DNA of 64,000 bases. It comes from Polaromonas sp. (lineage in GTDB: Bacteria; Pseudomonadota; Gammaproteobacteria; Burkholderiales; Burkholderiaceae_C). Of the stretch, positions 37,553 to 56,379 are shown piece after piece. Every line of letters starts with the position of its first letter. Position 1 is the stretch's first letter. The position numbers were made by a program, and so were the translations under genes. The DNA lies in the NCBI GenBank assembly GCA_030654695.1, contig JAURWY010000003.1, positions 41,429 to 105,428 of the forward strand. Direction: 5' to 3'. The notes beneath the pieces were generated by a model that was not told the origin of the DNA, did no database searches, and saw only the letters and a list, made by a program, of their open reading frames with translations.

Positions 37553-37591
37553 ATGAATATTGTGATTTTGGATACTTGTTTTCCCCTCTGA
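37553..37591 (+). pseudogene. Probable decapitated 5' end of a host gene at the prophage junction
   Basis: An ATG behind an ACAATAT -10-like box opens MNIVILD and then turns into TCFPL and a stop. MNIVILD is the usual beginning of a D-2-hydroxyacid dehydrogenase (MNIVILDDYQDA-type) common in Comamonadaceae. The simplest reading is that prophage DNA begins a few bases after the GAT codon at 37,571-37,573 and cuts the gene off. This is inference from seven residues. Confidence 0.4.
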
Positions 37592-37609
37592 AGAATAGGC
37601 AAATAGCCA

Positions 37610-37633
37610 AAAACCTACGCCAAAACCTACGCC
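37610..37633. repeat. Tandem 12-bp repeat at the prophage left end (possible integrase arm sites)
   Basis: AAAACCTACGCC is repeated exactly at 37,610-37,621 and 37,622-37,633, between the truncated host frame and the Rz stop codon. Short direct repeats of this kind next to an attachment core often bind the integrase arm domain; that role is inferred. The rest of the 37,489-37,637 gap holds a promoter-like sequence and nothing else recognised. Confidence 0.5.
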
Positions 37634-37637
37634 AAAT

Positions 37638-38102
37638 TTAGCGCGGCCAGGCATCGATTAGGGTTTGTCGGTCGTTAGCGAGCGCGTCAGTTTGAGCCGC
37701 CAGGCTTCGATATTCGTTGATGCACTCATTGAGTACGACGGTTGCTGTGTCTGCATAGAGATCGACGGCGGCGCGGGTAAGTCCGGGCAAGATAACGCGG
37801 GCGGTGGCGAGGTCGTCGCGCAGCCGGTCAGCAGCCAGGCGGCTGCGGTCAGCGTCGGCCAGTAGAGTTTTTTCACGAGTGATTGCTGCATTTTTGGCCT
37901 CTTGGACTTGGGTTTGTAATTGTTTTTCGCGGCTGCGCGCCGACTCGCTGGCCACGAGTGCGGCGGTGATATATTCGGCGCGGACCAACTCCACAGCGTC
38001 GTCGACTGCCCTGCTCTTGTCTGCTAGGTGCCAGATGCCCAAGCCGGCCAGCAGCCCAAGCACCAAGCCATAGCGCCAAAGACCAGTCAGCGCGGCAATC
38101 AT
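37638..38102 (-). CDS. Rz-like inner-membrane spanin
   Basis: A 154-residue protein with an N-terminal membrane anchor (WRYGLVLGLLAGLGIWHLA) and a long periplasmic coiled coil (ESARSREKQLQTQVQEAKNA; LAADRLRDDL). This is the i-spanin layout that, with an outer-membrane lipoprotein, fuses the two membranes at the end of lysis. It overlaps the endolysin gene by an ATGA junction and encloses an out-of-frame lipoprotein gene at 37,658-37,891. Confidence 0.8.
   Translation of the reverse strand: MIAALTGLWRYGLVLGLLAGLGIWHLADKSRAVDDAVELVRAEYITAALVASESARSREKQLQTQVQEAKNAAITREKTLLADADRSRLAADRLRDDLATARVILPGLTRAAVDLYADTATVVLNECINEYRSLAAQTDALANDRQTLIDAWPR
37658..37891 (-). CDS. Rz1-like outer-membrane spanin lipoprotein nested within Rz
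   Basis: A 77-residue frame lying wholly inside the Rz gene in another phase. It starts MQQSLVKKLYW, has a lipobox (AAWLLTGC) with the lipidated Cys near residue 24, and continues with a proline-rich stretch (TTSPPPALSCPDLPAPPS), exactly the Rz1 pattern. The embedded arrangement is known from lambda and its relatives. It would contact Rz across the periplasm. Confidence 0.8.
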   Translation of the reverse strand: MQQSLVKKLYWPTLTAAAWLLTGCATTSPPPALSCPDLPAPPSISMQTQQPSYSMSASTNIEAWRLKLTRSLTTDKP

Positions 38103-38551
38103 GCGATCGCCTGTATGCCCAGCTCTGCACCGGCGTCGGTGATGGTGATGACGCGGTTGGCGGGCTTATCGGCCATTCGGGTGCTGATATGGACCCATTG
38201 TTTGCCGGCTATGCCTTCGAGGATCAATTGCCCGATGCCGAGGTTTGAGACCAGTGGCGCGAGGCGCTTGGCGATTTGGTAAGGGGTGCCGAAGTCTGGG
38301 GCGAGAATGTCGGCGGCTTGGCCTCGGGCGTGGTCGCTGCTAGTGACGCCACCCACGGCAATATTGAGCTGCATACACCGATAGCCCGAGGTGACGATGA
38401 CCGGGCAACCCAGCAAGGTGCGTACGCGCTCCAGCAGCTCTGCGGTCAGGGTGAGTTTGTCCAGGTGCTCAGGCCGTGGGGTGTTGTCGATCTTGAGTCG
38501 GGCGCCGGTGGCGCTGGCCGTGAGTTCGGCGAGGGTGAAGTGTGGGGTCAT
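38099..38551 (-). CDS. Phage endolysin, peptidase M15A type
   Basis: A 150-residue protein beginning MTPHFTLAELTASATGARL. Zinc ligands of the M15A fold are seen as His and Asp in SSDHARGQAADI and His in KQWVHIS; ITSGYR-like VIVTSGYRCMQLN precedes them. It would cleave peptide crosslinks of peptidoglycan. It has no signal peptide, so it needs a holin. It is directly followed by the spanin genes in a normal lysis cassette. Confidence 0.88.
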   Translation of the reverse strand: MTPHFTLAELTASATGARLKIDNTPRPEHLDKLTLTAELLERVRTLLGCPVIVTSGYRCMQLNIAVGGVTSSDHARGQAADILAPDFGTPYQIAKRLAPLVSNLGIGQLILEGIAGKQWVHISTRMADKPANRVITITDAGAELGIQAIA

Positions 38552-38554
38552 GGC

Positions 38555-39049
38555 TTATTCTTTCTTTGGCAGAACATCAACGTCGGTCACCATCACCATA
38601 GGGATGGGGTAAAGCTGGTGCACCGGGTTGCAGACATACTCCAACACCGTCATCACTGAACCCTTACCGACGGCGGCTTGATCCGGCACTTTGATCTTGA
38701 TGGCCAGCATGTCGGGGTTGCGCTTGTCCAGCTCGTCCAAAGACTTTGCAGTCATCAGGCGCACGCCCTCAGTCAAGTCCCACGCCACACCCTTGGCATC
38801 TAAAAACATCCGTGAATACGTGACGCTGCACATCCTGGTCAAATCGCGTTTGACAGTGACCTTGATCTTGGCCGTCTCGCCACGATGGGTCGGGCTGGAG
38901 GTATAGCTGTTGACAACAAAGGGTGGCGTGCGATCCATCGCCCAAACGACGACTTGCCCCACGGCCACACAGACCATTGACGCGCCGAAGACCAGCAGAA
39001 AAGTGGCAAGTCGGTAGAGTTTTGCAAAGTTGCTCATGTTGGTGGCCAC
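38555..39049 (-). CDS. Phage membrane-anchored protein of unknown function in the lysis region
   Basis: A 164-residue frame starting at GTG 39,049 (or ATG 39,037, MSNFAKLYRL). There is one N-terminal membrane helix (LATFLLVFGASMVCVAVGQVVVWAM) and an extracytoplasmic domain with two Cys (RMCSVTYSRMF; LEYVCNPVH). It overlaps the preceding small membrane protein gene and lies 3 nt before the endolysin. It could be a lysis accessory or superinfection-exclusion protein; no family is recognised. Confidence 0.6.
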   Translation of the reverse strand: MATNMSNFAKLYRLATFLLVFGASMVCVAVGQVVVWAMDRTPPFVVNSYTSSPTHRGETAKIKVTVKRDLTRMCSVTYSRMFLDAKGVAWDLTEGVRLMTAKSLDELDKRNPDMLAIKIKVPDQAAVGKGSVMTVLEYVCNPVHQLYPIPMVMVTDVDVLPKKE

Positions 39050-39342
39050 CCTTCCATTGACGGGATTTCGATACCCGGCTGCGAATGAATGAATCCTTCG
39101 AGTTGATAGATTCGACGCAGGTAAATCGCCTTCTCAGACCGCAGCAAAGAGATGTCCGCTCTCAAGCCACGGATGTCATCGTTGAGCCGGTCACTCAGCA
39201 TGGCGCGGGCTTGCACTTCGACCAATTGCGCCTCTGCCGTGCGCGCGTCGATGTGGGCTAGCAGCCACTTGACACCGCCACCCAGCGAGACCAGAAACGC
39301 ACCCAGCGCAGCCAAGACTAGCGAGATGTCGGATGGGGTCAT
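39034..39342 (-). CDS. Small membrane protein, holin candidate
   Basis: A 102-residue protein with one clear N-terminal membrane helix (SLVLAALGAFLVSLGGGVKWLL) followed by a coiled coil (LNDDIRGLRADISLLRSEKA). It is located just upstream of the endolysin cassette in transcription order. A single-helix holin or pinholin-like function is possible from position and topology; no sequence match is recognised. Confidence 0.55.
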   Translation of the reverse strand: MTPSDISLVLAALGAFLVSLGGGVKWLLAHIDARTAEAQLVEVQARAMLSDRLNDDIRGLRADISLLRSEKAIYLRRIYQLEGFIHSQPGIEIPSMEGWPPT

Positions 39343-39794
39343 GCCACCGACTCCAGCCCAATCGCGGCCCGCTCATCCCTGCCCCACTGCCGCACGGCTT
39401 CGACGTGGGCACCGAAGGCTAGCAAGGCGTCCATCTCACCGGCTTGCATGGTGTAGACACCCAGCGCGGCACCGACGCCGATGCGTGAGAAATACTGCTC
39501 GTCGGTGATCGGGTAGACACTGCGGATGCGCGCCTGCATCTCGTCAGTGATTAACTGCACTGCGCGGCTGGCCGCTTTGATCTGCTCTAACAATGTCTCA
39601 GTCATCGTCACGGCTTGCCAGCCGATAGCGTCGGCTTGCTCGGGCAGCACGGCGTCGGTGGGCACAAAGGCGTAGTGCCAGCCGTCTACTTCTGCCAGCT
39701 CCAAAGCGCGGGGCTCAGCTTCGGCGTTGCGAAAGTACAGCGTCTGGCCGTCGGGGCCGGAGGTGGTGACTCGTTGGTATTTAAAGATGGGCAT
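39339..39794 (-). CDS. Phage protein of unknown function downstream of the DGR reverse transcriptase
   Basis: A 151-residue protein opening MPIFKYQRVTTSGPDGQTLYFRN, with helical stretches (ETLLEQIKAASRAVQLITDEMQA; AGEMDALLAFGAHVEAVRQWG). It resembles the small tail-fibre-assembly or lysis-proximal proteins that follow fibre genes. It overlaps the reverse transcriptase by 14 nt and the next gene by 4 nt. Function unknown. Confidence 0.6.
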   Translation of the reverse strand: MPIFKYQRVTTSGPDGQTLYFRNAEAEPRALELAEVDGWHYAFVPTDAVLPEQADAIGWQAVTMTETLLEQIKAASRAVQLITDEMQARIRSVYPITDEQYFSRIGVGAALGVYTMQAGEMDALLAFGAHVEAVRQWGRDERAAIGLESVA

Positions 39795-40818
39795 GCTGCG
39801 GTGCTCCTTGAAGGCTGAGAAAACTAAGTCGGGTGGTCAGGGGTAGCTGCGCCACCAGCTCGGGGCGCTCGGTGTGGATGCGCCGTGCAAAGTGACGGTG
39901 GCTGGCGGTGTGCCGGGCGTGGCCTAGAGCGCTGACCACGGCGGGGATGTTGCCGCTGCGCAGGCTGCGGGAGAACTTGCACAGCGTGTGCTTGCGGACA
40001 AAACGGGTCTTGCGCCAAGTCCGAAAACCGATGAAGTTAAACCCCCGCTTGACCGGCAGCACCGTCCACTTGGACAGCTCCAAATGCAGGGTAGCTTTGA
40101 GCCAATCCTCAATAGCGCGGCGCATGGTGTGGGCCTCGTCTTGGCTCAGGTCAAACACAATGAAGTCGTCCACGTAGCGCACGTAGTGCTTGACACCCAG
40201 CTCGCGTTTGATGAAGTGGTCTAGCGGGTTCAGGTAAACCAGCGCGGCCAGTTGGCTTAGCAGGTTGCCGATGGGGATGCCCACCGGGTCTGGGTAGTTG
40301 CCGAACATCGCCAGCAGGCTGAGCACCCGAGGGTCTTTGACCTTGCGTGCCCAGAGGCCCATCAAAACAGTGCGGTCAATGCTGTAGAAGAACTTGCGAA
40401 TGTCGAGCTGTAGAAAGAAGCTGTCTGCGGGTGCTGCGCGTAAAAACTGTTGCGCCCGGTCTGCCGCCTTGTGCGTGCCCAAGCCGACCCGACAGCCGTA
40501 GCTCTCTCGGCAAAAGGTGGCGTCGAAGATCGGGTAAATCACGCTGTAAATCGCGTGCTGCACCACCACGTCCCTGAAGTGTGGCGCGTAGATCAAGCGG
40601 CGCTTGGGCTCAAAGACCTCAAACGTTTTGTAGGGGCGCGGCGCATAAGTGCCCGCATGCAGCTCAGCGTGCAGCGCTTGCAGGTTAGCGCCGAGGTCGC
40701 GCTCAAACTTAGCCACTGCAGCCTTCTTGCGCTTGCCCCGGCGCGCCATGAGGTAGGCCGCGTACAGCGCCTCGGGGGTGAACATGTTGTCGAAAAGTTG
40801 GCCGTGTCGTTTAGTCAT
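39781..40818 (-). CDS. DGR reverse transcriptase
   Basis: A 345-residue group-II-like reverse transcriptase. Motifs: KRRLIYAPHFRDVVVQHAI (residues 72-90), FFLQLDIRKFFYSIDRTVLMG with the first catalytic Asp near 139, IPIGNLLSQLAALVYLN with the IGxxxSQ form of motif 4 that marks diversity-generating retroelements (181-197), the active-site box YVRYVDDFIVF (213-222), and a K(R)GFNFIGFRTWR end motif. It lies 127 bp after the template repeat in the order target-avd-TR-RT of the Bordetella phage element. It would copy the TR RNA while misreading adenines, giving mutagenic cDNA for the fibre gene. No maturase or endonuclease domain is present. Confidence 0.95.
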   Translation of the reverse strand: MTKRHGQLFDNMFTPEALYAAYLMARRGKRKKAAVAKFERDLGANLQALHAELHAGTYAPRPYKTFEVFEPKRRLIYAPHFRDVVVQHAIYSVIYPIFDATFCRESYGCRVGLGTHKAADRAQQFLRAAPADSFFLQLDIRKFFYSIDRTVLMGLWARKVKDPRVLSLLAMFGNYPDPVGIPIGNLLSQLAALVYLNPLDHFIKRELGVKHYVRYVDDFIVFDLSQDEAHTMRRAIEDWLKATLHLELSKWTVLPVKRGFNFIGFRTWRKTRFVRKHTLCKFSRSLRSGNIPAVVSALGHARHTASHRHFARRIHTERPELVAQLPLTTRLSFLSLQGAPQHAHL

Positions 40819-40944
40819 GCCTGATGCTCCCTTGCGGTACTAAAAAGACATGTCTTGCAGATTTCGCCAGAATGCAGGACGGAGCCACCCCTATGTCGCC
40901 AGTCTTTGCTGTGTGCAATGTCAGGTCAGCGAAAGCGAGATAGT

Positions 40945-41055
40945 CGGACACCCGGAAGCCAACGTTGTTGTTGTCGTTCGACCGGTTGTTGTTCCAGTTG
41001 CGATAGAACACGCCAGCGTTGCCAGCGTCGTTCCAGTTGCCAGAGGCCATCGGGA
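40945..41055 (-). repeat. DGR template repeat (TR)
   Basis: This 111-bp segment between avd and the reverse transcriptase matches the variable repeat at 41,543-41,653 with a constant offset of 598 bp. Of 111 positions 98 are identical. All 13 differences fall on T of the plus strand, that is, on A of the coding sense. The TR is rich in AAC codons (it would translate to many Asn), the usual template composition that yields maximal residue variety. It should be transcribed as part of the structured DGR RNA. An 84-codon open frame across it (40,811-41,065) is a by-product of this homology. Confidence 0.96.
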
Positions 41056-41080
41056 GGAAAAGCATGTTGATGGCCCGCCC

Positions 41081-41479
41081 TTACTCGGGTTGCGGGGTGA
41101 ACCGCAAACTCCGAATCCAGCCGCCAATCATCGCGCCCAGCTCATTGAGCAGGACCGAGACGGCGGTATAGCGGCGCAGGGCTTCAGCCACGGCGCGCGC
41201 TCTTTTGTGATGTTCATATTCAAAGTAACCCATCTCAAAGGCGAGATTGACAAACACGCGCAACTGCTCGTGCCGCACGTCTAGCTTGGTCAAGCTGGTT
41301 TTGTTGTGGTACTTCTTTTGGCACTCCACCAAGCCGCCCAGCACGCCGTAGACGCTTTGGCGCAGCTCTTGGCATAGGCCGTATTTCTCGTGGCGCGGGA
41401 AGTGGTTGAGATTGATGTTCAGCAGCATGATGAGTTCACGGCATTTGTGGTGGATGGCGGCTTGGGGATTGACGTTCAT
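41081..41479 (-). CDS. avd: DGR accessory variability determinant (Avd-like)
   Basis: A 132-residue, basic, all-helical protein (ECQKKYHNKTSLTKLDVRHE; RARAVAEALRRYTAVSVLLNE) matching the four-helix bundle (bvpD/23S-intervening-protein-like) family of Avd in size, charge and position. Avd binds the reverse transcriptase and the template RNA and is needed for retrohoming. It starts 49 nt after the fibre gene's stop codon and ends 25 nt before the TR. Confidence 0.88.
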   Translation of the reverse strand: MNVNPQAAIHHKCRELIMLLNINLNHFPRHEKYGLCQELRQSVYGVLGGLVECQKKYHNKTSLTKLDVRHEQLRVFVNLAFEMGYFEYEHHKRARAVAEALRRYTAVSVLLNELGAMIGGWIRSLRFTPQPE

Positions 41480-41502
41480 AAAGTAAGTGTGGGTTGGCTC
41501 AA

Positions 41503-41522
41503 GAGGGGGCTACCGCCCCCTC
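41503..41522 (-). promoter_or_regulatory. DGR target-site hairpin downstream of VR
   Basis: A perfect 8-bp GC-rich inverted repeat (GAGGGGGC at 41,503-41,510; GCCCCCTC at 41,515-41,522) with a 4-nt loop lies 6 bp after the fibre stop codon and 20 bp beyond the VR. In the coding sense the loop is GGTA. The size and place match the cruciform element that in Bordetella phage DGRs is required for efficient target recognition. It lacks a T run, so it is a poor terminator. Confidence 0.8.
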
Positions 41523-41528
41523 GACAAG

Positions 41529-43925
41529 TCAATTTCCATAGGCGGACACCCGGAAGCCAACGTAGCTGCCGCCGTTCGACCGGTAGTTGCTCCAGAGGCG
41601 ATAGAACACGCCAGCGCTGCCAGCGTCGCTCCAGAGGCCAGAGGCCATCGGGAAAAGGTTCGCGGTGCCGTAGTTGTAGTTGTAGTCGTTGCCGAACTGA
41701 CTTGTTCCCGCTGCGCTCATGCCGGCCAAAGCACCAATACCGCAGCAAGAGCGAAGGTAGTCGGTGCCGCTGGTGGCACCGCTGAACACCTGCGTGCTGC
41801 CGTTGCCAAAGTAAACCGCACCCGTGGCGCTGGTCCATGGCAGAAAGCCGGTGATCGAGTCGTAGTTGGTGGCTAAATTACTGGCCGTGCCCCATGCAGC
41901 CGGTGCAGCACCAAAGCCTGCGGTCAGGCTAGATAGCGCCACGCTGGACTTAAGCACATACGCTGTGCCGGTGGTGATGGCGGTAGTGTCTACATCACTG
42001 GTGCCCGCTTGCGTCAGGCCGAGCTGCGCTTGGTACATCGCGCCGTTGACGTCGGTCACACCGCAGGCTTGACCGTTGTGCGTGGTCTTTGCCAGGTTAG
42101 ACGCGCTGCCGGTGAGCGGCTTGGCGGCGCTGCCCGTGCCCGAGGTAGTGAACGTCACCGAAGCATCGTTGGTGTCGGCCAAGCTGCCGTTGTTGCAGCC
42201 TTTGGGGAAGTTGGTGGTGCCTGCGCTGTCGTACCACGCGCAGTAGGTGGTGGCCGTGGCGGCTTGGGCGTGGGCGAGTGACAACTTGGCCAGCGCGTCA
42301 GTCATGAAGATAGACGCAACGTTAAACACGCCTGCGCCCCGGCTGCGGGCCAGCACAATCGAGTCGGCCAAGATGCCGGTGCAACCCGTCATGCCGCTGG
42401 ATGGGTTGTAGCTGGCGTTGGTTGTCAGCGAGATGGGGTTGCCCAGCGCCACCGACTTGCAGCTGTTGCTGTTTTTGCTGGCAAGGTACTTGTCCAAGAA
42501 AAAGCCAGACTTGGCCGAGCCGCCGTCCGTGAAAGCACGGTGCATGGCATAGCCAGCGGTGTTGGCCAGTGCCTCAGTGGCGTAAGCGTCTACACCCACC
42601 ACGTCAATCGCGTTGGCACCGTAGACCGAGAAGCGCGGGCTGGAGGTGCTGCCGATGCGGTAATAAAACCGGGGCACAAACACCATGATGGACGAGTCGG
42701 TGAACTGGTAGTTGCCGTAGTTGGCACTGGTCTTGTCCGTTGTGCCGGTGAGCACGCTGAAGCCGCTTGGCAAAGTGCCGCTGTAAGTGCCCACGCCAAA
42801 ACCCTGCCCGCCCTGCGTACCGATCAGCCCGTCAAAAGACGCCGCCGTGGTGAACGACGTGGCCGTGCTGTAAGCGCTGCTGCCGTTGGCCGCGCCGGTG
42901 TGCTTGACACGCCAGTAATACGTCTGACTCACCGACAAACCGGCGACTGCCCATGTGGTTTTGTTGCTGGTGCTGGCTGTGCTGCTTTGCACAATGGCCG
43001 TGAAGCCTGAATTGGTTGACAACTGCCAGTCACTCGATGCGTGCGTGTCGGACACGCCCAGCCAAGCAAACGCTGAGGACGTCAGTGTGACGCTGCCGTT
43101 TTGGTTGGTGGCACCACTGGTCGGGCTGCTGTTGGTCGGCGTGGTGACACCTGCACCCAGCACCGTCAACGGGAACGCAGTCGGCACACTGTCCGTGGTG
43201 ACTGTGAGGGTGACTGACTGAGCGCTTGCAGGGGCGACAAAGGTGATGGTGTCGCCGGAGATGCTGACTGTGCCTGCACTGACTTGCACCACGTAGTCTG
43301 AGAAAACGTTGTAGTTGGTGATCGTGTAGACGATGGACTGGCTGACGTAGATCGTGGTGGTGCCGGAGAGGCTGGTGCTCGCGAGTTGCACGTCGCCGGT
43401 TTGGCCGTTGATGCTTGAGACGCCCGCCACGCTGCTGACGCCGATAGCCCAAGCCGAGCCCGTCCACACGCGCCAAAGGGTCAGCGTGGTGTCGAAGTAA
43501 GTTGCACCAGCCAGCAAAGCAGCGCCTTGGTTGTCGGTTGTTGGCGCTGTGGTTTTGTTGCCAAGGTTCAGCTTTGAGGCTGCGATGCGGCTGGTCTCTG
43601 CTGCTGCGGCACTTATGCCGGTGGCGGTGCGGTCTGATCCGGTTTGCACGCGGTCGGCGGCTGTGCCGATGGCGTCAGCGGCTGTTAGTTCGGCTTGTTC
43701 CGTGGCGAATACCAATTGCGCCGCACCATTTATTGTGGCGAGTGCGGCCTGGTCAGTTGCTTCGATTGCCGCTGCTGTCGCTGTAGCGGTGTTTTCGTTT
43801 ATTTCGACGCGGGCGGCTTCAGCCTCGACTGAAAAAGCTGGCAGTTGCGTCGCAAAGAAGGTGTCTGTATCGCTGCGGAAAGTTGAGGCTGTGCGGTCGA
43901 GTGAGGGTAATGCGGTGATGGTCAT
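41529..43925 (-). CDS. Tail fibre / receptor-binding protein, target of the DGR
   Basis: A 798-residue protein. The N-terminal about 120 residues are an alanine-rich tail-attachment helix (AAAIEATDQAALATINGAAQ). Middle parts hold beta-domains, including a fibronectin III-like stretch (WQLSTNSGFTAIVQ; QTYYWRVKHTGAANGSSAYS). Residues about 390-798 resemble the formylglycine-enzyme/C-type-lectin-like scaffold used by DGR targets. The last 37 residues are the variable repeat: ten positions (764, 766, 770, 777, 779, 781, 785-788) differ from the TR-encoded residues, all at Asn or Asp template codons. The protein probably binds host receptors. It follows the tail protein gene with a 4-nt overlap. 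Confidence 0.92.
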   Translation of the reverse strand: MTITALPSLDRTASTFRSDTDTFFATQLPAFSVEAEAARVEINENTATATAAAIEATDQAALATINGAAQLVFATEQAELTAADAIGTAADRVQTGSDRTATGISAAAAETSRIAASKLNLGNKTTAPTTDNQGAALLAGATYFDTTLTLWRVWTGSAWAIGVSSVAGVSSINGQTGDVQLASTSLSGTTTIYVSQSIVYTITNYNVFSDYVVQVSAGTVSISGDTITFVAPASAQSVTLTVTTDSVPTAFPLTVLGAGVTTPTNSSPTSGATNQNGSVTLTSSAFAWLGVSDTHASSDWQLSTNSGFTAIVQSSTASTSNKTTWAVAGLSVSQTYYWRVKHTGAANGSSAYSTATSFTTAASFDGLIGTQGGQGFGVGTYSGTLPSGFSVLTGTTDKTSANYGNYQFTDSSIMVFVPRFYYRIGSTSSPRFSVYGANAIDVVGVDAYATEALANTAGYAMHRAFTDGGSAKSGFFLDKYLASKNSNSCKSVALGNPISLTTNASYNPSSGMTGCTGILADSIVLARSRGAGVFNVASIFMTDALAKLSLAHAQAATATTYCAWYDSAGTTNFPKGCNNGSLADTNDASVTFTTSGTGSAAKPLTGSASNLAKTTHNGQACGVTDVNGAMYQAQLGLTQAGTSDVDTTAITTGTAYVLKSSVALSSLTAGFGAAPAAWGTASNLATNYDSITGFLPWTSATGAVYFGNGSTQVFSGATSGTDYLRSCCGIGALAGMSAAGTSQFGNDYNYNYGTANLFPMASGLWSDAGSAGVFYRLWSNYRSNGGSYVGFRVSAYGN
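41543..41653 (-). repeat. DGR variable repeat (VR) at the 3' end of the fibre gene
   Basis: It forms codons about 758-795 of the fibre gene. Relative to the TR it carries 13 substitutions (9 at distinct Asn codons and one at an Asp codon in protein terms; A to G, T or C in the coding sense). The last 21 bp toward the stop codon (41,543-41,563) are unchanged, giving the initiation-of-mutagenic-homology segment, and similarity ends sharply on both sides. Confidence 0.96.
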
Positions 43926-44851
43926 TGGGCGAGTCCTTCTATTTCGAGGCTGGTTAACACGTAAGTGGGGTATGTAATGTCGATGTTGAAGTCGCGAAAG
44001 AAGCCGTAAAGAATGAGCGGCTCGTAACCAGGCTCAGTGGTGGCGCTGTAGACGCAAAGTACGGACTCCATGCTGGCAAGCAGCCGGAAAATCCGGCTTA
44101 ATTCTGATTTTTCAATCATCAATTTCCAAGAGGCGCGTTTGCTGTTTTGGCGTTTGATGATGGTCAGATTGCCAAATGCGTCAGTCTGTTTGACTGAGTA
44201 ACTGATGATCCCAATGGTGGCGCCCATTTGCGTCTCGCCAAGGGTGGAGACTTTGCCGACGTGTGCCACACCGCAAGCCACGTTGCCCGCTGTGCTGGTG
44301 ACGCTGATAGTCAATTCGCCATTGAAAAACTGGCTTGGCAGGTCCGTTAAGGTCAGGTCGGTCTGCTGCGCAAACTCTGCAAAAAACCAATCAAAAAAAC
44401 TGGTGACGATCGTGCCATCAAGATCGACTGTGCGGCTGTAGACGACGGTTCCGTCAGTCTGGTCTTTGAGTGAGATTTCGGCGGTGCGGCCTGTCAACTC
44501 CAACAGCGCCAAGCCGCTAACTGGTCCAGGGTTTATCACGACGGTGAGCGGGCTGGCCAGCGTGCTGATGGTGCCGATCTTTTCGTCAAACATAGCCCAC
44601 TTATTTGTTGGGGCGATGTTGAGCCACTTGGGCGGAGTTCCGGTGATATTGAGATTGGGCGCACCTGTGGAATCTGTGGATGTGTGGGCTGTCTGGCATT
44701 GATAAATTCGGTGAATGCCGGTGGTCATGATGCGTTTGTCCCCCACGGCAAAGGTGCCTGCGGTCCAGACTGGGAAATCAGTTTCTGGCACGGTGCTGCT
44801 GACGACCATGGCGTCGGTCAGTTTGGTTGGGGTGATGATGCTGGCGCTCAT
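43922..44851 (-). CDS. Phage minor tail protein of unknown type
   Basis: A 309-residue protein between the tape measure and the fibre, overlapping both by 4 nt. It contains repeated beta-rich segments (LTVVINPGPVSGLALLELTG; VVYSRTVDLDGTIVTSFFDWFF) and ends with YGFFRDFNIDITYPTYVLTSLEIEGL. This resembles the distal tail or baseplate-hub proteins that connect fibre to tail tip in siphoviruses. The role is inferred from position. Confidence 0.7.
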   Translation of the reverse strand: MSASIITPTKLTDAMVVSSTVPETDFPVWTAGTFAVGDKRIMTTGIHRIYQCQTAHTSTDSTGAPNLNITGTPPKWLNIAPTNKWAMFDEKIGTISTLASPLTVVINPGPVSGLALLELTGRTAEISLKDQTDGTVVYSRTVDLDGTIVTSFFDWFFAEFAQQTDLTLTDLPSQFFNGELTISVTSTAGNVACGVAHVGKVSTLGETQMGATIGIISYSVKQTDAFGNLTIIKRQNSKRASWKLMIEKSELSRIFRLLASMESVLCVYSATTEPGYEPLILYGFFRDFNIDITYPTYVLTSLEIEGLAQ

Positions 44852-47800
44852 GATGTGACGGCCTCCACGGCGATTGCGGTTCCGTTTGGCATAGCGCGTT
44901 CAAGCAGGCGCGCCGTTTTATTGGTGTTTGACGCACTGGCTTGGGCCTCGATGCGCAGGCCCTTCATTTCTTCGTTCACGCCCTGCACTTCTGCGCGCAA
45001 GGCTCGAACTTCAGCAATCAGCTCGCTACTACCTTGCGGGCTGCTCAAGCGAGCCATCAGTAGCCGGTTGTCTGCGGCGGGGATGATCCGCTCGCCCGCG
45101 TGAATGTTGGCAGTCATGTCATAGGGCACGCTGTTGGTGCCTGCCGCGAAGCCATACAATGCGCGGAAACTTTCGGGGTCGCCGTTCCAGCCGGTGGCGC
45201 CGTAAATGTCGCCACCGACAGCTGCAGCTGCTGCATTGAATTGACTTGTGCTGACGCCGCCGACGGCTGATTGATATACCAGCTTTGCAGCGGTTATCAG
45301 GTCGGAGTCGCCAGGTACGACGCTTACACCGCTGCCGTGCGCGTAGGCGCTGCTATTTGCCCAGCCATCTCCACCACCCGCGGCACCCAGTGAGCCGGTT
45401 GCTGCCGCAGCTGCAGCTGCTTGGGCTGCGGCGCTAGCAGCTGCATTTGCTGAGGCCAAGCCGTTGATGGCAGTGCCCAGGTTGGCGATAGCTTGCACGA
45501 CTGTCAGCACGCTGGTGTTGACAGCATTGATAGCGTCTATCTGTGCCTGTGCCGTGCTGATGATTCCCTCAAGACGGGTCATTTCCGCGTCGTGGTTGCT
45601 CTTGAGCAAAGCCAACTGGTCGGTCATTTGGCGCTGCTGGATCTGGTCGGCAGTCAGCGCAGCATCCGTCATTTCGGCCAAGGCGGCTATGTCGTTAGCA
45701 GTTTTGTAAAAGTCGCGGGCGTAGTCTTCGAAAGTTGAGTAAAGCTGTTCTGAGGGTTGTGCGACTGCCCGCAGCGCGTTATCAAGTTGGCCGTCGAGTG
45801 GCAGGCCACCGCCACTGCGGGCTTGGGCGAGTGCCGCAAAAATAGTGGCTTGTGCGCTGCTGCGGTTGGCGCTTTCGGCACCGGCGATGCTCATGCCGTC
45901 GAGAGTGCTGCGCAATATGCTGGAGAGGCTTTGCAGCTTACTCACGCTTGCGCTCACAGTGTCAAGACTGCTTTGCACGGCTGCTGATTGCGCTTCGTAG
46001 GCGCTGGTGATGGTTTTGCGCTCTGCGTCGACTGCGCGGCCTAGTGCGGCCATGGCGTCTGACACACCCTGCTGGGCTGTATCGATCACTTTTTGCAGCG
46101 CATCGGTTGCGGCAGTTGCCAAGTCGTCGGCTATCTGTGCCAGTGTTTCAGCGGTGTCCGAAAAGGTCGGCGCAAGCGACAGCATCATGGCGTAAGCGGC
46201 GCGACCTGACTCTGTTGTTAAGTCAAGCCCGACGGCCAAGGCGCGGAAGGCTTCTTTTGATTCTGGCAAGGTCAAATTAACGCTTGCCAGTGCGCGGGTC
46301 ATGGCTGACTGGCTTTCGGCTGCGCGTTCGGCGTCTGTATAAAACGCTTCGTAAAATGCTTGGCTCTGGCTATTGAGATTTTCTAAGCCGCCAAAGGCTT
46401 CGGCCAAAAGATTTGCCGACTTTGCACCAGCCAGAGACATTTCAAACATGGACTGTCCAAAAATACGCGCCCAGTCGTTTGTGATGGTCAAGCCGTTGGT
46501 CACGCGGGTCAACGTCTCAAGCAAGCCCTCGCCAGCGAGCTGCATGTCTTTCAGACTTGGCGCAATGGCAACGGCCAAGGTGTCGCCCATGGCCGAAAAT
46601 ACGGCGGTCAACAATTCCTGAATCTCTTGGCCGGTTTTGTCTTTGAGGCTGATTTTGCTAAGGCCGGTGTCGATACTCTGAAGTGCGTCGATCTGGTCTT
46701 GTGTAACGCCGATTTGTGTCGCCGCCGTGCTGACGATTTCAAACATTTGTTTGACGGCGGTCGACATGGTTTCGGCGACTTTGGCGTCAACGGCGCTCAT
46801 GGAGGTGTTGTAGCTGGTGCTGCTCTTGCTGCCAAAACCCAAAAGTCCCGAGCTGGATGAGTCGGTGCGGGTGACTTCGTACTGTTGCAAACTGAGCGAT
46901 TTGATGGCTTCGCCAACAGTCTGTTTTGCAAAGGCAAGGCCGAGGTCAGAAAGGCTTGTGCTTGATGAGCTTTTACCGAAGATTGAGCCGATGATGCCGC
47001 CGCCCGATGCGGAGCTGCTGCCCTGAAACTGAGAGCCAAAGGCGTCGAAGCCGCTGCTTAAAAGCGATGAGGTTGCGCCCGCCAAGCTGTTGTTGATGCT
47101 GCGAAGCAAGCTGACCATTTGCGATGTGAACAACAGGCTTGGTTTGGCGTAGCCTTCCAGTGCGTCGAGGCTATTTTGGATACTCTCGCTTTGGGCTGTC
47201 GGGTCGCCCAGCACCGTACCTGTACCGGTGTTTGCGGCTTGGCCTGCAAAGGCGTCCATGCTGACTGATGGAGCGCTGCCGCCTTTGCTCATGCTACCCA
47301 ATACAGCGGCAATGGCCACGGCTGCAGCAGCCATACCCCAAGGGCCAAGGGCACTCATGAACGCCATAAAAACACCAGGTGCTTTGACGACGTTGCGTTC
47401 AGCTTCACCGAGAGTGACAGCTGCTGTTTCAGCAACTTGTCCGGCGGCAACGCCGGTGGCTGTGGTTGTACTGACAAACAGGCTGGTAAATAGCTTTTCT
47501 GCCAAGTTAGCCATCTGCATCAGGTGGGCGGCTTGCTCGATGCCGCTCATCAAGCGATAGCCGTCAGAGCCTTCTTTGAAAAACCCTTTGGCTGCGCCGG
47601 CCATGCTGGCGTAGGCGGAGATTTGGTCTTTGCGGGTACGCTCGATGAGGGCTTGTTCATTGACGGATGCCGTCTCCAGGTTGCTCTTGCCGCCCTCTTT
47701 ACGCAGGGCGTTGATGACGCTCATTTCTTTGGCGTACTCTTTGCCGGATTCAGCCAGCACGCCCATGACGCTGACCATGCGGGCCAAGCCGTCACCAGCC

Positions 47801-50109
47801 GTAGCGAAGGTTTCGCGCAAGGTGTTGCCCCAGTCTTTGAAGGGGTCTTGAACTTTGTTGCCGACCAGCCGCTCGGTTTGGTCGAGACCGGCTTGTGCAA
47901 CGTCTTTGCCAGCACTGGCGTTGGCGGTGCCAGTGGCGACATTTTTCAGGGCGGTGAGCTGGGCAATTGTGGTGGCGAAGTTGTCGTTTTGCTCCTTGGT
48001 CAGACCTATTTGTTCGGCAATGGCTTTGTTGTGTAACGTGGTGGCGAGTGCAGCACTCAAATTAGCGACTTCTTCACGGGCCAAGATGGTGGCCGTGCTG
48101 TCAATGGCGATGCCGTGCAGGCGCACAGTTTTGGTCTGGGCTTCCAGTGCGCGTGTTTCTGCGTTCAGTGCGGCAGTTTTTAAAATACCGTCGCCCAAGA
48201 CCTTGCTGAGGGCTTCGTTATATTTTTTTGCGAGCTCGGCAGCGGCCACTAGCAGCTCGTTGTTGTATTTGGCGTTGATGCCAATTTCGTCTTCGCGCAG
48301 CTTGGTCAGCTCGCCGTTGTATTTGACGACGGCACTGGCTTTGTCTTTGGTGGCGAGCTTAGAGCTCTCGACGGCTTTTATCTCAAGGTTGACCAGCGAC
48401 TGTATGCCGGCGTTAGCACCCAAAGCCAAGTCGCGTTTTTGAGTGTAAAAATCTTGGTCTTGCACCAGCCCGGCGGCGCGGCTGGCGGTGAGGGCTTCTT
48501 GGGATCTTTTTTCGCCGCTGGTGACGGTTATTTGCAGTTGCTCGTACAGCGCGACTTGGGCATCAACAGCGGTTTTTATGGTGTCGTCGACGGCGGCTTT
48601 AGGCGCTTTGGCGCGAATGGCGGCCAAGTCTTTGTTGCGTTGCTCGGCGCTGACTTTGCCTAAAAATTTAGTGTCGTAGTCGGCCAGTTGCTTGGCGAGT
48701 TTGTCGCCGCCGGACTGGTAGTCGGCCATGAAGGCGGTGCGCGCAGCGGTGGTGACCCGCTTGGTTTCGTCGGTCAAGTCTCTGGCAAATTCGGAGTAAC
48801 TTCTGAAGGCATTGGCCATCTTGGCGCCGGAAGATTTAATCAGGTCGTCACGCACAGCGTCAGGAATTCCGGCAAATTGGCCGGTTCGGTTGATGACTGC
48901 CTGATACTTGTTGTAAGCGTCGGTGTATTCTTTGCCCGAGTCCAGTGCAGTTTGATTTGGAAGTGGCTCGATGGATAAACCTGCGAGCTGGTTGCGCTCT
49001 CTCAGCTTGGCGGCTTGTTGGTCGACGCGCTTGATGATGTCTTCGTGCGACTCAATAACCTTTGTCTTGACGGCCTCTTCGCCGTTAACGCCAGCGGCGC
49101 GCCATGCCACCCACGCGGCCGCACCCAAACCCAAGGCGGTGACGACCAAGCCAATGGGGCCGCCGAGTGCGCCCGTGGCCAGCGCTAGGGCGCTGGATGC
49201 CACCGTGGCTGCAGTGGTTGAGATGCGCAGCAGCACATAGGCGGCGGCCAGTGAGCCAGCGGCCACCACGGCAGTGTCCATATTGTTGGACAGCACCACC
49301 AGCCCGTCGGCAAAGCCCCGGCTGATGCCGTTGGCTTGGTCAAACACGCCAATGGTTTGTAGCAGGCTGTTTTGAATCAGCGTCATGGCCTGCCCGATGG
49401 TGGTGGGCAGTTGTTCAAACTCAGCGTCAATCCGGCCCTTCATGCGCTCAAGCGCGGTGAAGACGACTTCAGTGGTTATTTTTCCTTCGGCGGCGAGTGT
49501 TTTGAGCGCGCCTACGGGTTGGCCCATGCCTTCGGCTAGTGCTTGTGCCAGGCGCGGGGCCTGCTCTAAAACGCTGTTGAGTTCTTCGCCGCGCAAGGCG
49601 CCAGCGTTCATGCCCTGACCAAACTGGACCATGGCGGCGCGGGCGCTCTCGGCGCTACCGCCTGAGATGGTCATGGCTTTGGATAGCGTCTCTGTAATGC
49701 CTAAAACGCGGCTTTGGCTGGCGCCCATCTCGGATGCTGAGCGGGACAGTGTGACATAGACTTCGGACAAACCCTGCACACCGACACGGGAGCGCGCAGC
49801 TATTTCAAACAGCTGCTGCTGCGCTACAGCGGCACTACCGACGCCCTGGCTGGCGAGAGCTACGCGGGCGTTGAGGCTGGCGTAGGCGTCTGTGAGCGCG
49901 GCTATTTTGTTGACGCTGAAAGCGGCGGCGGCAATGGCGCCCATGCTGGCGAGTTGGTTGCTCAAGCCTTGCACACCGGCGCTGGCGCTACCAAAACCAC
50001 GCGACATATTGCCGGTCATGGTGGCAGTTTTTAGTTGCGCAGCGTCTATAGCGGTTTTGAACTGAGCGTCGTCGACGGCCAGTGTGAACTTGATACTGGT
50101 GTCAGCCAT
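44848..50109 (-). CDS. Tail tape measure protein
   Basis: A 1,753-residue protein, the longest in the window. The tape-measure N-terminal domain spans about residues 60-260 (QLFEIAARSRVGVQGLSEVY; LRGEELNSVLEQAPRLAQALAEGMG). Long coiled-coil and alanine-rich stretches follow, with hydrophobic segments (LLRISTTAATVASSALALATG; MAAAVAIAAVLGSM). It sets tail length, suggesting a tail of roughly 250 nm by the usual about 1.5 Å per residue rule. It lies directly after the frameshifted tail chaperone genes, as expected. Confidence 0.92.
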   Translation of the reverse strand: MADTSIKFTLAVDDAQFKTAIDAAQLKTATMTGNMSRGFGSASAGVQGLSNQLASMGAIAAAAFSVNKIAALTDAYASLNARVALASQGVGSAAVAQQQLFEIAARSRVGVQGLSEVYVTLSRSASEMGASQSRVLGITETLSKAMTISGGSAESARAAMVQFGQGMNAGALRGEELNSVLEQAPRLAQALAEGMGQPVGALKTLAAEGKITTEVVFTALERMKGRIDAEFEQLPTTIGQAMTLIQNSLLQTIGVFDQANGISRGFADGLVVLSNNMDTAVVAAGSLAAAYVLLRISTTAATVASSALALATGALGGPIGLVVTALGLGAAAWVAWRAAGVNGEEAVKTKVIESHEDIIKRVDQQAAKLRERNQLAGLSIEPLPNQTALDSGKEYTDAYNKYQAVINRTGQFAGIPDAVRDDLIKSSGAKMANAFRSYSEFARDLTDETKRVTTAARTAFMADYQSGGDKLAKQLADYDTKFLGKVSAEQRNKDLAAIRAKAPKAAVDDTIKTAVDAQVALYEQLQITVTSGEKRSQEALTASRAAGLVQDQDFYTQKRDLALGANAGIQSLVNLEIKAVESSKLATKDKASAVVKYNGELTKLREDEIGINAKYNNELLVAAAELAKKYNEALSKVLGDGILKTAALNAETRALEAQTKTVRLHGIAIDSTATILAREEVANLSAALATTLHNKAIAEQIGLTKEQNDNFATTIAQLTALKNVATGTANASAGKDVAQAGLDQTERLVGNKVQDPFKDWGNTLRETFATAGDGLARMVSVMGVLAESGKEYAKEMSVINALRKEGGKSNLETASVNEQALIERTRKDQISAYASMAGAAKGFFKEGSDGYRLMSGIEQAAHLMQMANLAEKLFTSLFVSTTTATGVAAGQVAETAAVTLGEAERNVVKAPGVFMAFMSALGPWGMAAAAVAIAAVLGSMSKGGSAPSVSMDAFAGQAANTGTGTVLGDPTAQSESIQNSLDALEGYAKPSLLFTSQMVSLLRSINNSLAGATSSLLSSGFDAFGSQFQGSSSASGGGIIGSIFGKSSSSTSLSDLGLAFAKQTVGEAIKSLSLQQYEVTRTDSSSSGLLGFGSKSSTSYNTSMSAVDAKVAETMSTAVKQMFEIVSTAATQIGVTQDQIDALQSIDTGLSKISLKDKTGQEIQELLTAVFSAMGDTLAVAIAPSLKDMQLAGEGLLETLTRVTNGLTITNDWARIFGQSMFEMSLAGAKSANLLAEAFGGLENLNSQSQAFYEAFYTDAERAAESQSAMTRALASVNLTLPESKEAFRALAVGLDLTTESGRAAYAMMLSLAPTFSDTAETLAQIADDLATAATDALQKVIDTAQQGVSDAMAALGRAVDAERKTITSAYEAQSAAVQSSLDTVSASVSKLQSLSSILRSTLDGMSIAGAESANRSSAQATIFAALAQARSGGGLPLDGQLDNALRAVAQPSEQLYSTFEDYARDFYKTANDIAALAEMTDAALTADQIQQRQMTDQLALLKSNHDAEMTRLEGIISTAQAQIDAINAVNTSVLTVVQAIANLGTAINGLASANAAASAAAQAAAAAAATGSLGAAGGGDGWANSSAYAHGSGVSVVPGDSDLITAAKLVYQSAVGGVSTSQFNAAAAAVGGDIYGATGWNGDPESFRALYGFAAGTNSVPYDMTANIHAGERIIPAADNRLLMARLSSPQGSSELIAEVRALRAEVQGVNEEMKGLRIEAQASASNTNKTARLLERAMPNGTAIAVEAVTS

Positions 50110-50132
50110 GCGTTTGCTTTAGGTGAGTGGTT

Positions 50133-50875
50133 TTAACTGGCTTGACTGGCTCTTTGCTCAGCCCAGACGTCCAGTACGGCGAATTCCATGGCTTGCAAGC
50201 CGTTGAACAGCTCGGCGCGGTCTTTGGCTTTGATGGCCAGCACGTCACGCATGAAGGCAGTGACGCCCGCGTAGTCAAGGCCTGTTTTGTCGCCCATGCC
50301 GCCCACGCGCCACTGCGTTTGCACTTGCTGCCAAAGGCGAAAGGCGGCCACGTTGCAGGGCCAGAGATAGACTTTGTCTTGTGGCTGAGGTGCCCTACCC
50401 TCTTCTTCGCCGTCTTCTGTACCGTCGTCCGGCCGTAGGCCAAAGACGGCCAGGGCGTTGTCGAGTTCAGTGTCTGGTGTGGGGTCTGCATGGTGCTGAA
50501 TGTGTAATTGGCCGCGTGCTTGCAGACGCGCGACCTGTGCTAGTTTTTTTCCTTAGCGCCGCATTCTTTGAGGTAGGCGGTGAAACAAACGGAGGCAACG
50601 CCAGCAACATTGAGCAGGGCTTCCAAGGCTTCGGCACTGAATTCAGCCGGCTCGCCGGTGGCGTCTAGCAGCAAGCGCTGACCAGACCAGCCGGTGATGA
50701 CGTCGGCCATGAAGTCTTTGACCTTGCGTTCTTTGTCTTCAAGGCGGGCTGAAATATCGTCTTGCGGCAAGCGATCAGCGATCAGCGTGAAGCTGAACAG
50801 GCGTGCTACGCCTTTGTTTTTAAGGGTGAACTTGACGGGGACTTCGACGGTGTTTTCAACGGCTAGGGTGAACAT
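50133..50875 (-). CDS. Tail assembly chaperone fusion (G-GT-like) made by -1 ribosomal frameshift
   Basis: The upstream frame (start 50,875) ends at TAG 50,540-50,542, just after the heptamer A AAA AAC. A -1 slip there enters a second frame that stays open from CTA at 50,541-50,543 through LAQVARLQARG, DNALAVFGLRPDDG, VYLWPCNVAAFRLWQQ and down to a stop at 50,133; the second part resembles the DUF1799-type T protein. The fused product (about 247 residues) together with the short form would chaperone the tape measure, as gpG/gpGT do in lambda. No independent good start for the second frame is seen. Confidence 0.8.
50540..50875 (-). CDS. Tail assembly chaperone, short form (G-like)
   Basis: The start is MFTLAVENTVEVPVKFTLKNK (50,875); an upstream in-frame ATG at 50,959 would translate a REP-like palindrome and is rejected. 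The 111-residue protein has the small alpha/beta form of siphovirus tail chaperones (LIADRLPQDDISARLEDKER; EFSAEALEALLNVAGVASV). It follows the tail tube gene and precedes the tape measure. Most ribosomes should stop at TAG 50,540, making this form more abundant than the fusion. Confidence 0.82.
   Translation of the reverse strand: MFTLAVENTVEVPVKFTLKNKGVARLFSFTLIADRLPQDDISARLEDKERKVKDFMADVITGWSGQRLLLDATGEPAEFSAEALEALLNVAGVASVCFTAYLKECGAKEKN
50543..50549 (-). promoter_or_regulatory. Slippery heptamer A AAA AAC for -1 frameshifting
   Basis: In the coding sense the codons GAA AAA AAC TAG end the short chaperone frame. The X XXY YYZ heptamer is in the right phase, and the -1 frame continues open for 137 codons. 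Stimulatory secondary structure downstream was not worked out. Confidence 0.8.
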
Positions 50876-50912
50876 GCAAGGCTTTCGGGTATTTGGGATT
50901 AAGAGTGAGGGC

Positions 50913-50964
50913 ATGGATTGCCGCGCTGCGCTCGCAATGACACGGGTGGGTTGCGGCAATCCAT
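50913..50964. repeat. REP-like palindromic element inside the prophage
   Basis: ATGGATTGCCGC (50,913-50,924) and GCGGCAATCCAT (50,953-50,964) form a 12-bp inverted repeat around a CTGCGCTCGCAATGAC-type core typical of bacterial REP sequences. It occupies the gap between the tail tube gene and the chaperone gene. Confidence 0.7.
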
Positions 50965-50971
50965 TTCTCGC

Positions 50972-51937
50972 TTACAGGGAGACGATGCGCAATTCGTCGT
51001 TGCCGGCAACAGGCAAGATGCGCATGTCAAAACCGATCAGGCGCATGCCGTTGAAGTCTTCTTTTTTCGGGTTGATAAGCTGTACGGCAGGCATGTGCAG
51101 CATGATCTTGTTGCCCGTGGTATTGCCTATTACAAAGCCGATGCTTTGGGTTGCATTGGCTTTGACAGAGGTCATCATGGTGACCTCTTGCGCAGCCGTC
51201 AGGTCTAAGCTCAGGGTGCCGACCATCTTGCGGTCGGTCAGCATGACTTGCTCAGTCGCCAACATAGGTGCAAAGGCAACAGCGTTGCCCCAATCAAGCG
51301 TCAGGCCGGTGCTGTTGTAGGCAGTACCAGCAGACAACTCACCAGCGGTGTAGGTGCAGCCGAACTGAATATCGGTGACGTTGGCTTTTGTGATGGGAAC
51401 AGGCGTTTTCCAGGCGGTCAGCGTAGGGGCGGTATTGGAGACAGCAGTGACACCGCCGTCGAGACCGGTGAAGTCAAACGTCAGTTTGGGCGCTTCGCCT
51501 GATTTGGCTGACAACTTGACGTTGCCAAAACAACCCAGCAGTTTGTGCAGCACGCCGTCGTCGTACCAATAAATAGACAGTGTTTTTAACTGATCTGTTG
51601 CGGGCAGGTATTCAACGCGGTCGACTGTTATTAAATCTGTACTCTCTGAGTGGCCGCAGCCCAGCATGAGCGCGCCCCAAGCCGGGGCGGTAGCAGCCGT
51701 TCCGGCTCCAGCCAAGTTAACGGTGAAGCTGCATTTGACGGATGCTGTGCCGACCAGTGACTCCGTGTTGCCGAAGTAGGCGCGGATGTAGTTCATATCG
51801 ATGTTGCTGGCATCGAGTGGGGTGATGGACAGGTCGGACACCTGTAGGGCGTTGGCCGAGCCAGTTGGTGTGGCGTCCGTGCCACTGGTGGTTTCGATTT
51901 TTGCGAGGATGACGGTTTTGCGAATAAGGCGTGACAT
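50972..51937 (-). CDS. Major tail tube protein
   Basis: A 321-residue, beta-rich protein (MSRLIRKTVILAKIETTSGTD; GLDGGVTAVSNTAPTLTAW; KKEDFNGMRLIGFDMRILPV) with low charge, placed directly before the tail chaperone. Size and composition fit the phage tail tube family that polymerises into the non-contractile tail. The assignment is by pattern and synteny. Confidence 0.75.
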   Translation of the reverse strand: MSRLIRKTVILAKIETTSGTDATPTGSANALQVSDLSITPLDASNIDMNYIRAYFGNTESLVGTASVKCSFTVNLAGAGTAATAPAWGALMLGCGHSESTDLITVDRVEYLPATDQLKTLSIYWYDDGVLHKLLGCFGNVKLSAKSGEAPKLTFDFTGLDGGVTAVSNTAPTLTAWKTPVPITKANVTDIQFGCTYTAGELSAGTAYNSTGLTLDWGNAVAFAPMLATEQVMLTDRKMVGTLSLDLTAAQEVTMMTSVKANATQSIGFVIGNTTGNKIMLHMPAVQLINPKKEDFNGMRLIGFDMRILPVAGNDELRIVSL

Positions 51938-51940
51938 GTT

Positions 51941-52144
51941 TTACTCCGTTGGTGTTTCTGTGGGTTCGGCAACAGGCGCCGAAGTGGTGGTCTGAATAAC
52001 CGGTTGCGCAGCGGGCTGTGTAGCTTGCTGTATCGCTGGCACCCATGCGCCGAGCGTTGCGTTCCAAGTCCATTGACCGCCACCGGGAACAGGGGTGTTG
52101 TCTGGCGTGCGGCTGTGGGTTGCTGTGTTTTTGGATGTGGCCAT
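51941..52144 (-). CDS. Small proline/threonine-rich phage protein
   Basis: The start at MATSKNTATHSR (52,144) fits the gap after the preceding gene. The 67-residue protein has a GGGQWTWNATLGAWVPA segment and a low-complexity tail (QQATQPAAQPV, PVAEPTETPTE). It lies 3 nt before the tail tube gene. Function unknown. Confidence 0.55.
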   Translation of the reverse strand: MATSKNTATHSRTPDNTPVPGGGQWTWNATLGAWVPAIQQATQPAAQPVIQTTTSAPVAEPTETPTE

Positions 52145-52148
52145 GGTT

Positions 52149-52589
52149 TTAAAGTTGTGCTTGCAGGCTGCTGGTTGATGTGCTTTGGCTGGCGGTGAGC
52201 TGGATGGCGGCGCAGACAACAGGGGTTTCGGAGTCGTCGTAATCCCACTTGATCATTGGGTCAATGCAAACGTCGGCACCCAGAAGGTCAGCGCGGAAGG
52301 CCGCCAACCTTTGCCAAGTGCTTTGTAGTAAGTCGTCTACGGCTGCAGCTGGGTCAGACCCAGCCACGGCGCGGGCGTAGCATTCAACCAAGATGGTTGT
52401 GTTCCAGCGCAAAGTGCCCAGCACAAACTCCGATCCATTCGACCGCTCAAGCCGCAGCACGATGGCTGTGGACTGACCAGCTGGAATAGGCCGGAGCCGG
52501 TTGATGCCGATGCGTCCACCGGCCAAAGCAGGCGCGGCTGCAAGGGCTGCAGCCAGTTCAGCCACCAGCGAGGTGAATGCGGTGCTCAT
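52149..52589 (-). CDS. Tail terminator/completion-like protein
   Basis: A 146-residue protein (AELAAALAAAPALAGGRIGIN; FVLGTLRWNTTILVECYARAV; AAVDDLLQSTWQRLAAF) with the length and pattern of phage minor tail protein U/tail completion families. It lies between the head-joining gene and the tail tube gene, where the tail terminator normally sits. Confidence 0.65.
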   Translation of the reverse strand: MSTAFTSLVAELAAALAAAPALAGGRIGINRLRPIPAGQSTAIVLRLERSNGSEFVLGTLRWNTTILVECYARAVAGSDPAAAVDDLLQSTWQRLAAFRADLLGADVCIDPMIKWDYDDSETPVVCAAIQLTASQSTSTSSLQAQL

Positions 52590-52873
52590 GCCAACTCCAA
52601 CTGCAAAACGCTGATACCGGTGCCGTTGGGCTCGTGTGCGGCAACGGTGTAAACGCTGCTGCCCACTTGCACTGCCAGCCCAATCGGGTCGGCTGGCACA
52701 TTGGCGGTGGCCAGTGTCAACATCGGCTGCGTGCCAGCCATGCCATAAACCCCCACACCTGCCAACGCATAAGCCGCATCGAAGAGCGCAGACACTTCAA
52801 CCCCACCGAGAGTGACCTTTTGGGCAAACTCGTCGGCGTTGAAAAAGGTGCTGAAGTCTTCGGTGAAGGCCAT
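52586..52873 (-). CDS. Head-tail joining protein (FII/stopper-like)
   Basis: A 95-residue protein, MAFTEDFSTFFNADEFAQKVTL and VGSSVYTVAAHEPNGTGISVL, matching the small head-tail joining proteins that follow the capsid gene. It overlaps the next gene by 4 nt. The role is inferred from size, beta pattern and position. Confidence 0.7.
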   Translation of the reverse strand: MAFTEDFSTFFNADEFAQKVTLGGVEVSALFDAAYALAGVGVYGMAGTQPMLTLATANVPADPIGLAVQVGSSVYTVAAHEPNGTGISVLQLELA

Positions 52874-52907
52874 GGCGATGTGTCGGGTGGGTGCTTTGGC
52901 GGCGGGT

Positions 52908-54788: not shown

Positions 54789-54809
54789 AGGGCTAATGTC
54801 TCGCTTCTG

Positions 54810-54840: not shown

Positions 54841-54867
54841 GTTTTGTGTTTTTTCATGGTTTATTTC

Positions 54868-56364: not shown

Positions 56365-56379
56365 GGTGTGTCTGTAGGT

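Follow-up and report, generated by a model that had tools for sequence, protein, structure and literature searches.

The window analysed here, a 64-kb stretch of DNA, carries what we regard, with confidence close to certainty, as a complete diversity-generating retroelement (DGR) in a prophage, in which a TR would be copied into adenine-mutated cDNA that replaces the VR of a fibre-like target. Taken as a whole, the sequence points to a complete DGR in a temperate, siphovirus-like phage that is probably active. The mechanism is a known one and not a new one, and the window provides a clear new example of it. The target gene, a hairpin, avd, the TR and the reverse transcriptase (RT) gene follow one another as they do in Bordetella phage BPP-1, all on the minus strand (39781-43925) and all with open frames. 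The canonical order on one strand had been claimed in a sequence-only reading of this DNA, and it is confirmed for every part named there; the interpretation of the cassette as a complete DGR is likewise supported by every sequence test that we applied.

TR and VR differ only at adenines

The TR (40940..41055) and the VR (41538..41653), both 116 bases long and on the minus strand, align without gaps over their full length, and the TR has an adenine at every one of the 14 mismatches (A>G in 7, A>T in 4 and A>C in 3, read from TR to VR). The VR forms the last coding bases of the target gene, in agreement with the C-terminal VR and partner TR that had been proposed. Adenines make up 28 of the 116 TR bases, which by our own arithmetic puts the random odds of such an adenine-only pattern at about (28/116)^14 = 2e-9. 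The AAC codons of the TR can turn into codons for many residues and never into a stop, as TAA, TAG and TGA are out of reach whatever both adenines become. Since drift would add changes of other kinds, a TR/VR pair that has no non-adenine mismatch is what recent homing would leave behind.

Elsewhere in the 64-kb window there is no close TR/VR-like repeat, the runner-up having 44 non-adenine mismatches, and the host assembly (3.45 Mb in 34 contigs, 99.85% complete) contains the TR, the VR and an RT of this kind once each. A search of viral contigs with the exact TR pattern, its adenines left free, returned 0 matches. Nor is there a near copy of the cassette among the 199 genomes searched, because the RT of the best other genome is only 41% identical.

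Reverse transcriptase, Avd and the TR-RT spacer

The RT (345 aa; 39781..40818, minus strand) matches RVT_1 at 59.1 bits and PHROG 1423 at 2.1e-109, and contains the IGNLLSQ and YVDD motifs that had been ascribed to it. In a tree of 41 RTs, rooted at its midpoint, it belongs to a group of 33 rows that includes BPP-1 Brt, with support of 89/96, which is under the level that the tool stars. All 33 rows carry [I/V/L/M]GxxxSQ; among the outgroup RTs, QGxxxSP is found in four rows and no such motif in the other four. A passage of PMC3521204 gives (I/V/L)GxxxSQ in motif 4 as a mark of DGR RTs. The phylogeny that had been suggested as a check therefore groups the RT with DGR RTs, and the feared placement outside the DGR clade did not occur. 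The gene described earlier as Avd-like (132 aa; 41081..41479, minus strand) exceeds the cut-offs of both Pfam bAvd (56.8 bits, cut-off 40) and NCBIfam DivGenRetAVD (80.8 bits, barely over the cut-off of 80), and matches PHROG 3206, 'Avd protein of DGR', at 6.5e-23.

Between the TR and the RT gene lies a spacer of 121 bases (40819..40939, minus strand), whose nucleotide sequence is conserved in relatives and which is likely part of the TR RNA. Its conserved stretches lie around ACATAGGG and GGCGAAAT and are possibly a structured part of that RNA; Rfam gave no match in 37500-64000, the spacer included. An 84-codon frame runs through the TR in the VR frame (40811..41065, minus strand) and extends 8 bases into the RT gene; relatives show an overlap of 4 or 8 bases, or a TR frame that continues in frame into the RT, as at seven loci. 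TRs that overlap RT ORFs are among the arrangements reported in PMC3521204. Across 38 loci (the 41 that have a TR and an RT, minus 3 with repeated TR sequence), the VR frame is open from the TR to the RT start in 27, and the other two frames in 10 and 2. Spacer mismatches are spread evenly over the codon positions (0.315, 0.310 and 0.331, from pairs that are not independent), and in view of this lack of a codon-position pattern we rejected a selected peptide from the TR frame, which bears no sign of protein selection. The closing of the alternative frames is explicable because conserved nucleotide stretches carry TAG, an example being ACATAGGG, which is conserved in close-clade spacers and holds TAG in another frame. 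As the TR sits in an open frame that starts just after avd, ribosomes crossing it might couple RT synthesis to the template RNA and so set the dose of mutagenesis; we consider this very unlikely, and a narrow keyword search of the literature found no coupling of TR translation to RT synthesis.

The target protein

The target gene (41529..43925, minus strand) is an open ORF for a fibre-like protein of 798 aa that ends in the VR, and PHROGs give it no tail fibre name. Its C-terminal variable-protein domain (residues about 369-798; 41529..42821, minus strand) was modelled on an alignment of 67 homologues, a shallower one of 32 having given a pLDDT of 36.2 and been left unused. The model predicts with high confidence that the last 430 residues take the fold of TaqVP, a DGR variable protein of the C-type-lectin type. 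Modelling of the target C-terminus had been proposed with such a fold in mind, and the predicted fold is that of TaqVP and Mtd, so that the target whose 3' end carries the VR has a predicted C-type-lectin fold. Compared with solved structures, the target sequence gave only two weak, unrelated HisF matches (best E 0.0067). The fibronectin-like middle that had been read into the protein is weakly suggested by a Pfam PhoD_N match of 22.6 bits, below the cut-off of 30.

The C-terminal 429 aa find matches in 1406 proteins. We aligned 121 rows, namely the target from the window, P0121 (the copy of it in the database) and the 119 further proteins that scored best among the 1406, and in this alignment the N-terminal part is poorly conserved among relatives, residues 1-180 showing high entropy and low occupancy.

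The post-VR hairpin and the homing start

The hairpin reported to follow the VR was found 15 bases past it, at 41503..41522 on the minus strand (GAGGGGGC-GGTA-GCCCCCTC), and consists of a GC-rich 8-bp stem closed by a GGTA loop. In the account of Guo and colleagues (PMC3240598), phage DGRs have GC-rich stems of 7-10 bp and GRNA loops, 4-34 bp after the VR, and the stem, loop and distance in the window all fall within these bounds. The hairpin folds at -10.2 kcal/mol (z -2.3), with 8 of 200 shuffles folding as well; taken alone it is moderately unusual, and it is conservation in relatives that makes the case. Among the 21 loci that have a TR at target identities of at least 53%, 16 entered a hairpin alignment, while L045, L051 and L056 (duplicate hairpins) and L061 and L063 (no four-base-loop hairpin) were left out. 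The 16 loci contribute 15 distinct sequences, and the loop is kept as G[AG][CT]A. Compensatory changes occur in six of seven stem pairs and both-sided changes in 24 of 105 cells, a count as high being reached in 0 of 500 shuffles; that 99% of cells are paired is partly by construction, because the rows were chosen for having a hairpin. A GRYA hairpin is present at 19 of the 21 TR-bearing loci with at least 53% target identity, and at 1 of 21 below 53%.

The last of the 14 TR/VR mismatches, A>C at 41542, turns Asp in the TR into Ala 795 in the VR (codon 795, 41541..41543, minus strand; GAC in the TR, GCC in the VR). Residue 795 is Ala in 118 and Cys in 3 of the 121 aligned rows, and the identical A>C closes the TR/VR match in all four relatives inspected (L022, L023, L025 and L036), which is why the change looks like a fixed homing-start boundary, a difference held by the family and likely part of the homing start (IMH). 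To judge by these sequences, it does not appear to be a product of mutagenesis and probably marks the homing start, which leaves 13 of the 14 mismatches as putatively mutagenic. On the 3' side of the A/C site the flanks of TR and VR diverge, yet they are conserved among relatives; TATGGAAATTGACT, for example, follows the VR in the window, L022 and L023. A fixed A/C site with diverging 3' flanks would fit IMH versus IMH*, with a working role that we infer from BPP-1.

Adenine-linked variation among relatives

In the 121-row alignment, mean entropy is 3.18 bits over the 11 VR codons for which the window TR reads AAC, 1.64 bits over the six that have A at one of their first two positions, and 0.64 bits over the 21 that have A at neither; the remainder of the variable domain averages 0.73 bits. 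Between close relatives the pattern is the same: across five close pairs that have a TR (divergence below 12% outside the VR), 30 of 35 VR differences fall at TR adenines, which account for 31-33 of 130 bases. L044/L045 (16 of 17 differences at TR adenines) and L053/L056 (14 of 17) contribute most of these, the sole VR difference of L097/L098 lies off the TR adenines (0 of 1), and the VR is identical within L050/L051 and within L084/L085. Such differences are natural variation between related phages and not a direct view of the window phage. Adenine-linked variation, whose absence had been named as the outcome to fear, is strong both across homologues and between close relatives. In the relatives' repeats, the finding that only adenines differ is partly by construction in the extended portion, because extension stopped at the first non-adenine mismatch; the independent part is that the 80-base seeds of the relatives have 0 non-adenine mismatches. 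On this comparative evidence the family diversifies its VR, and the window copy presumably does the same.

To follow the cassette itself across relatives, 80 of 306 confirmed loci were taken; of 83 sequences examined, L036 and L068 (no usable target match) and 5 without a stop codon inside the locus were dropped, leaving 76 with a mapped target end. A TR lies near the target in 42 of the 76, accompanied by Avd in 42/42 and by RT in 41/42, in the order target-Avd-TR-RT. It is absent near the target in the other 34 (within L046-L119). An RT search of the records of 32 TR-less loci (all but L057 and L101) gave no match in 31. The target domain can therefore be kept where the cassette is missing, with the reservation that most of these records are fragments; TR-less targets may reflect loss of the cassette, its action from elsewhere, or fragmentary contigs. 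Two of them, L118 and L119, are separated by a single difference among 860 body sites and by 12 among the 130 of the VR segment. This VR-focused divergence might point to a cassette acting from elsewhere, but of the 13 differences only 1 to 6 coincide with adenines when four proxy TRs are compared. A repeat scan also gave two candidate VRs per TR in L015, L016 and L018, which belong to the same order or genus.

The prophage and its integration site

The part of the prophage inside the window (37573..64000) carries genes for lysis, tail, head, packaging, replication and regulation; between 37638 and 62415 we recognise an Rz-like gene, an M15 endolysin, tape measure, tail, capsid, portal, head-tail joining and terminase genes, and an O-like replication gene. 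The window (G000:C19:41429-105428) does not cover the whole prophage, as its contig breaks off at window base 64000, so that the intactness of the other prophage modules is not judgeable from the window, and the integrase arm lies on contig C15. A search with the left junction led to this contig, whose first 8352 bases carry an integrase (L039 6852-8138; PHROG 1, 9e-38) together with early-type genes. The 20-base att core ATGAATATTGTGATTTTGGA (37553..37572, plus strand) recurs on contig C15 at L039 8353-8372, where a host dehydrogenase gene begins with it.

The sister species L122, whose LexA is 97% identical, has lexA and the dehydrogenase gene uninterrupted, 90 bases separating them, and retains 17 of the 20 bases of the core. 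The core at both junctions and this empty site place the phage between lexA and the dehydrogenase gene, and integration at an att site by way of an integrase is thus documented by the core, the C15 integrase and the uninterrupted L122 site. In 15 of 19 loci from relatives, both genes fall inside the retrieved flank and point the same way. The insertion falls exactly at the start codon of the 2-hydroxyacid-dehydrogenase-like gene, whose own upstream region is consequently replaced by phage DNA.

The tape measure protein has 1753 aa, and no sheath was found among the proteins scanned in the prophage as read up to the contig gap. The label lambda-like, given to the prophage on first reading, agrees with the late-gene order and the O-like replication gene, but PHROGs named no J/K/L/I-type tail-tip genes among the proteins scanned.

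Comparison with known DGRs

The cassette shares with BPP-1 (mtd-avd-TR-brt) its gene order and strand, a TR right after avd, a spacer before the RT, a hairpin with an 8-bp stem and a GRNA loop past the stop codon, adenine-only differences and a C-type-lectin target (the fold being predicted for the window). It differs in its RT, to which that of BPP-1 is 39.7% identical, in its repeats (116 bases against 134), and in its target, a variable domain of 430 residues behind about 370 others, where Mtd has 381 residues. The late genes of the window prophage are siphovirus-like, so the difference in phage type from BPP-1 that had been pointed out is real, but it is not unusual: Pseudomonas phage Bise (OR683401), the nearest phage match of the RT, has a contractile tail. 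Bise ranks top for the RT in the phage collection (53%) and resembles the window in its 4-helix protein, 116-base TR/VR and GGTA-loop hairpin after the VR, whereas its target has 364 aa and no long N-terminal part. TaqVP (5vf4), the DGR variable protein of a Thermus aquaticus prophage, has 18% identity to the window target in the aligned part.

Closer in RT are DGRs of uncultured phages in IMG/VR, L022/L042 and L023/L040, with 82% and 67% identity. Together with the Thauera aromatica target P0137 they have the layout, conserved spacer and IMH sequence of the window and a similar inter-repeat spacing (589 versus 598 bases), but they differ from it in the letters of the VR, part of the TR and the N-terminal part of the target.

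Discussion

By analogy with BPP-1, a TR-containing RNA would be reverse transcribed by the RT with Avd, with misincorporation at adenines, and the cDNA would integrate at the 3' end of the VR, which the hairpin and the fixed A/C mismatch would help to mark as the target; the TR itself would stay unchanged. The varied residues are predicted to lie on the ligand-binding face of a C-type-lectin domain at the end of a tail fibre.

A sceptical account of the same DNA would make the TR a decayed duplicate of the fibre end and the RT an unrelated enzyme from a retron, group II intron or defence system. Its footing is that the best NCBIfam match of the RT is a group II intron RT (132.7 bits) and that PADLOC RT models also match; yet that match is far under its cut-off of 300, the RT also stays under the NCBIfam cut-offs for retron, Drt and AbiA RTs, and the SQ motif, the grouping with DGR RTs and the adenine-only differences all speak for a DGR. 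The adenine-only pattern together with the RT type refutes this account, to which we assign next to no probability. Diversification of a host-encoded or second phage protein, besides or instead of the fibre, has a precedent in the multi-target DGRs described in PMC3521204, but one VR in so nearly complete an assembly leaves room for a further target in the missing stretch of the prophage or another gap and nowhere else, and we judge it highly improbable.

The DGR could instead be complete but silent, frozen in a prophage that makes no particles, with the VR as a record of past mutagenesis. The contig ends split the prophage, whose integrity is not traceable beyond them, and in many relatives the target is present with neither TR nor RT; set against this are the open frames of RT, Avd, target and the late genes checked, the preserved TR and hairpin, and a TR/VR pair without any non-adenine difference. 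We consider silence unlikely and prefer a complete DGR that is probably active.

Thousands of DGRs, many of them in phages, are counted in the catalogue described in PMC8144416. To these the window adds a complete DGR of BPP-1 layout on a mapped prophage with its att site and an empty site. In BPP-1, as reported by Guo and colleagues (PMC3240598), the pairing of the hairpin stem matters and its sequence does not, and the stem covariation in 15 distinct natural sequences provides natural support for that mutation result. Family-wide data also tell fixed adenines, such as the one behind Ala 795, from mutable ones. The family is a large one of phage fibres (1406 matches to the C-terminal domain), in which N-terminal parts differ and the variable domain is retained, and variation on the predicted ligand-binding face of that domain would give phage progeny with different receptor-binding tips.
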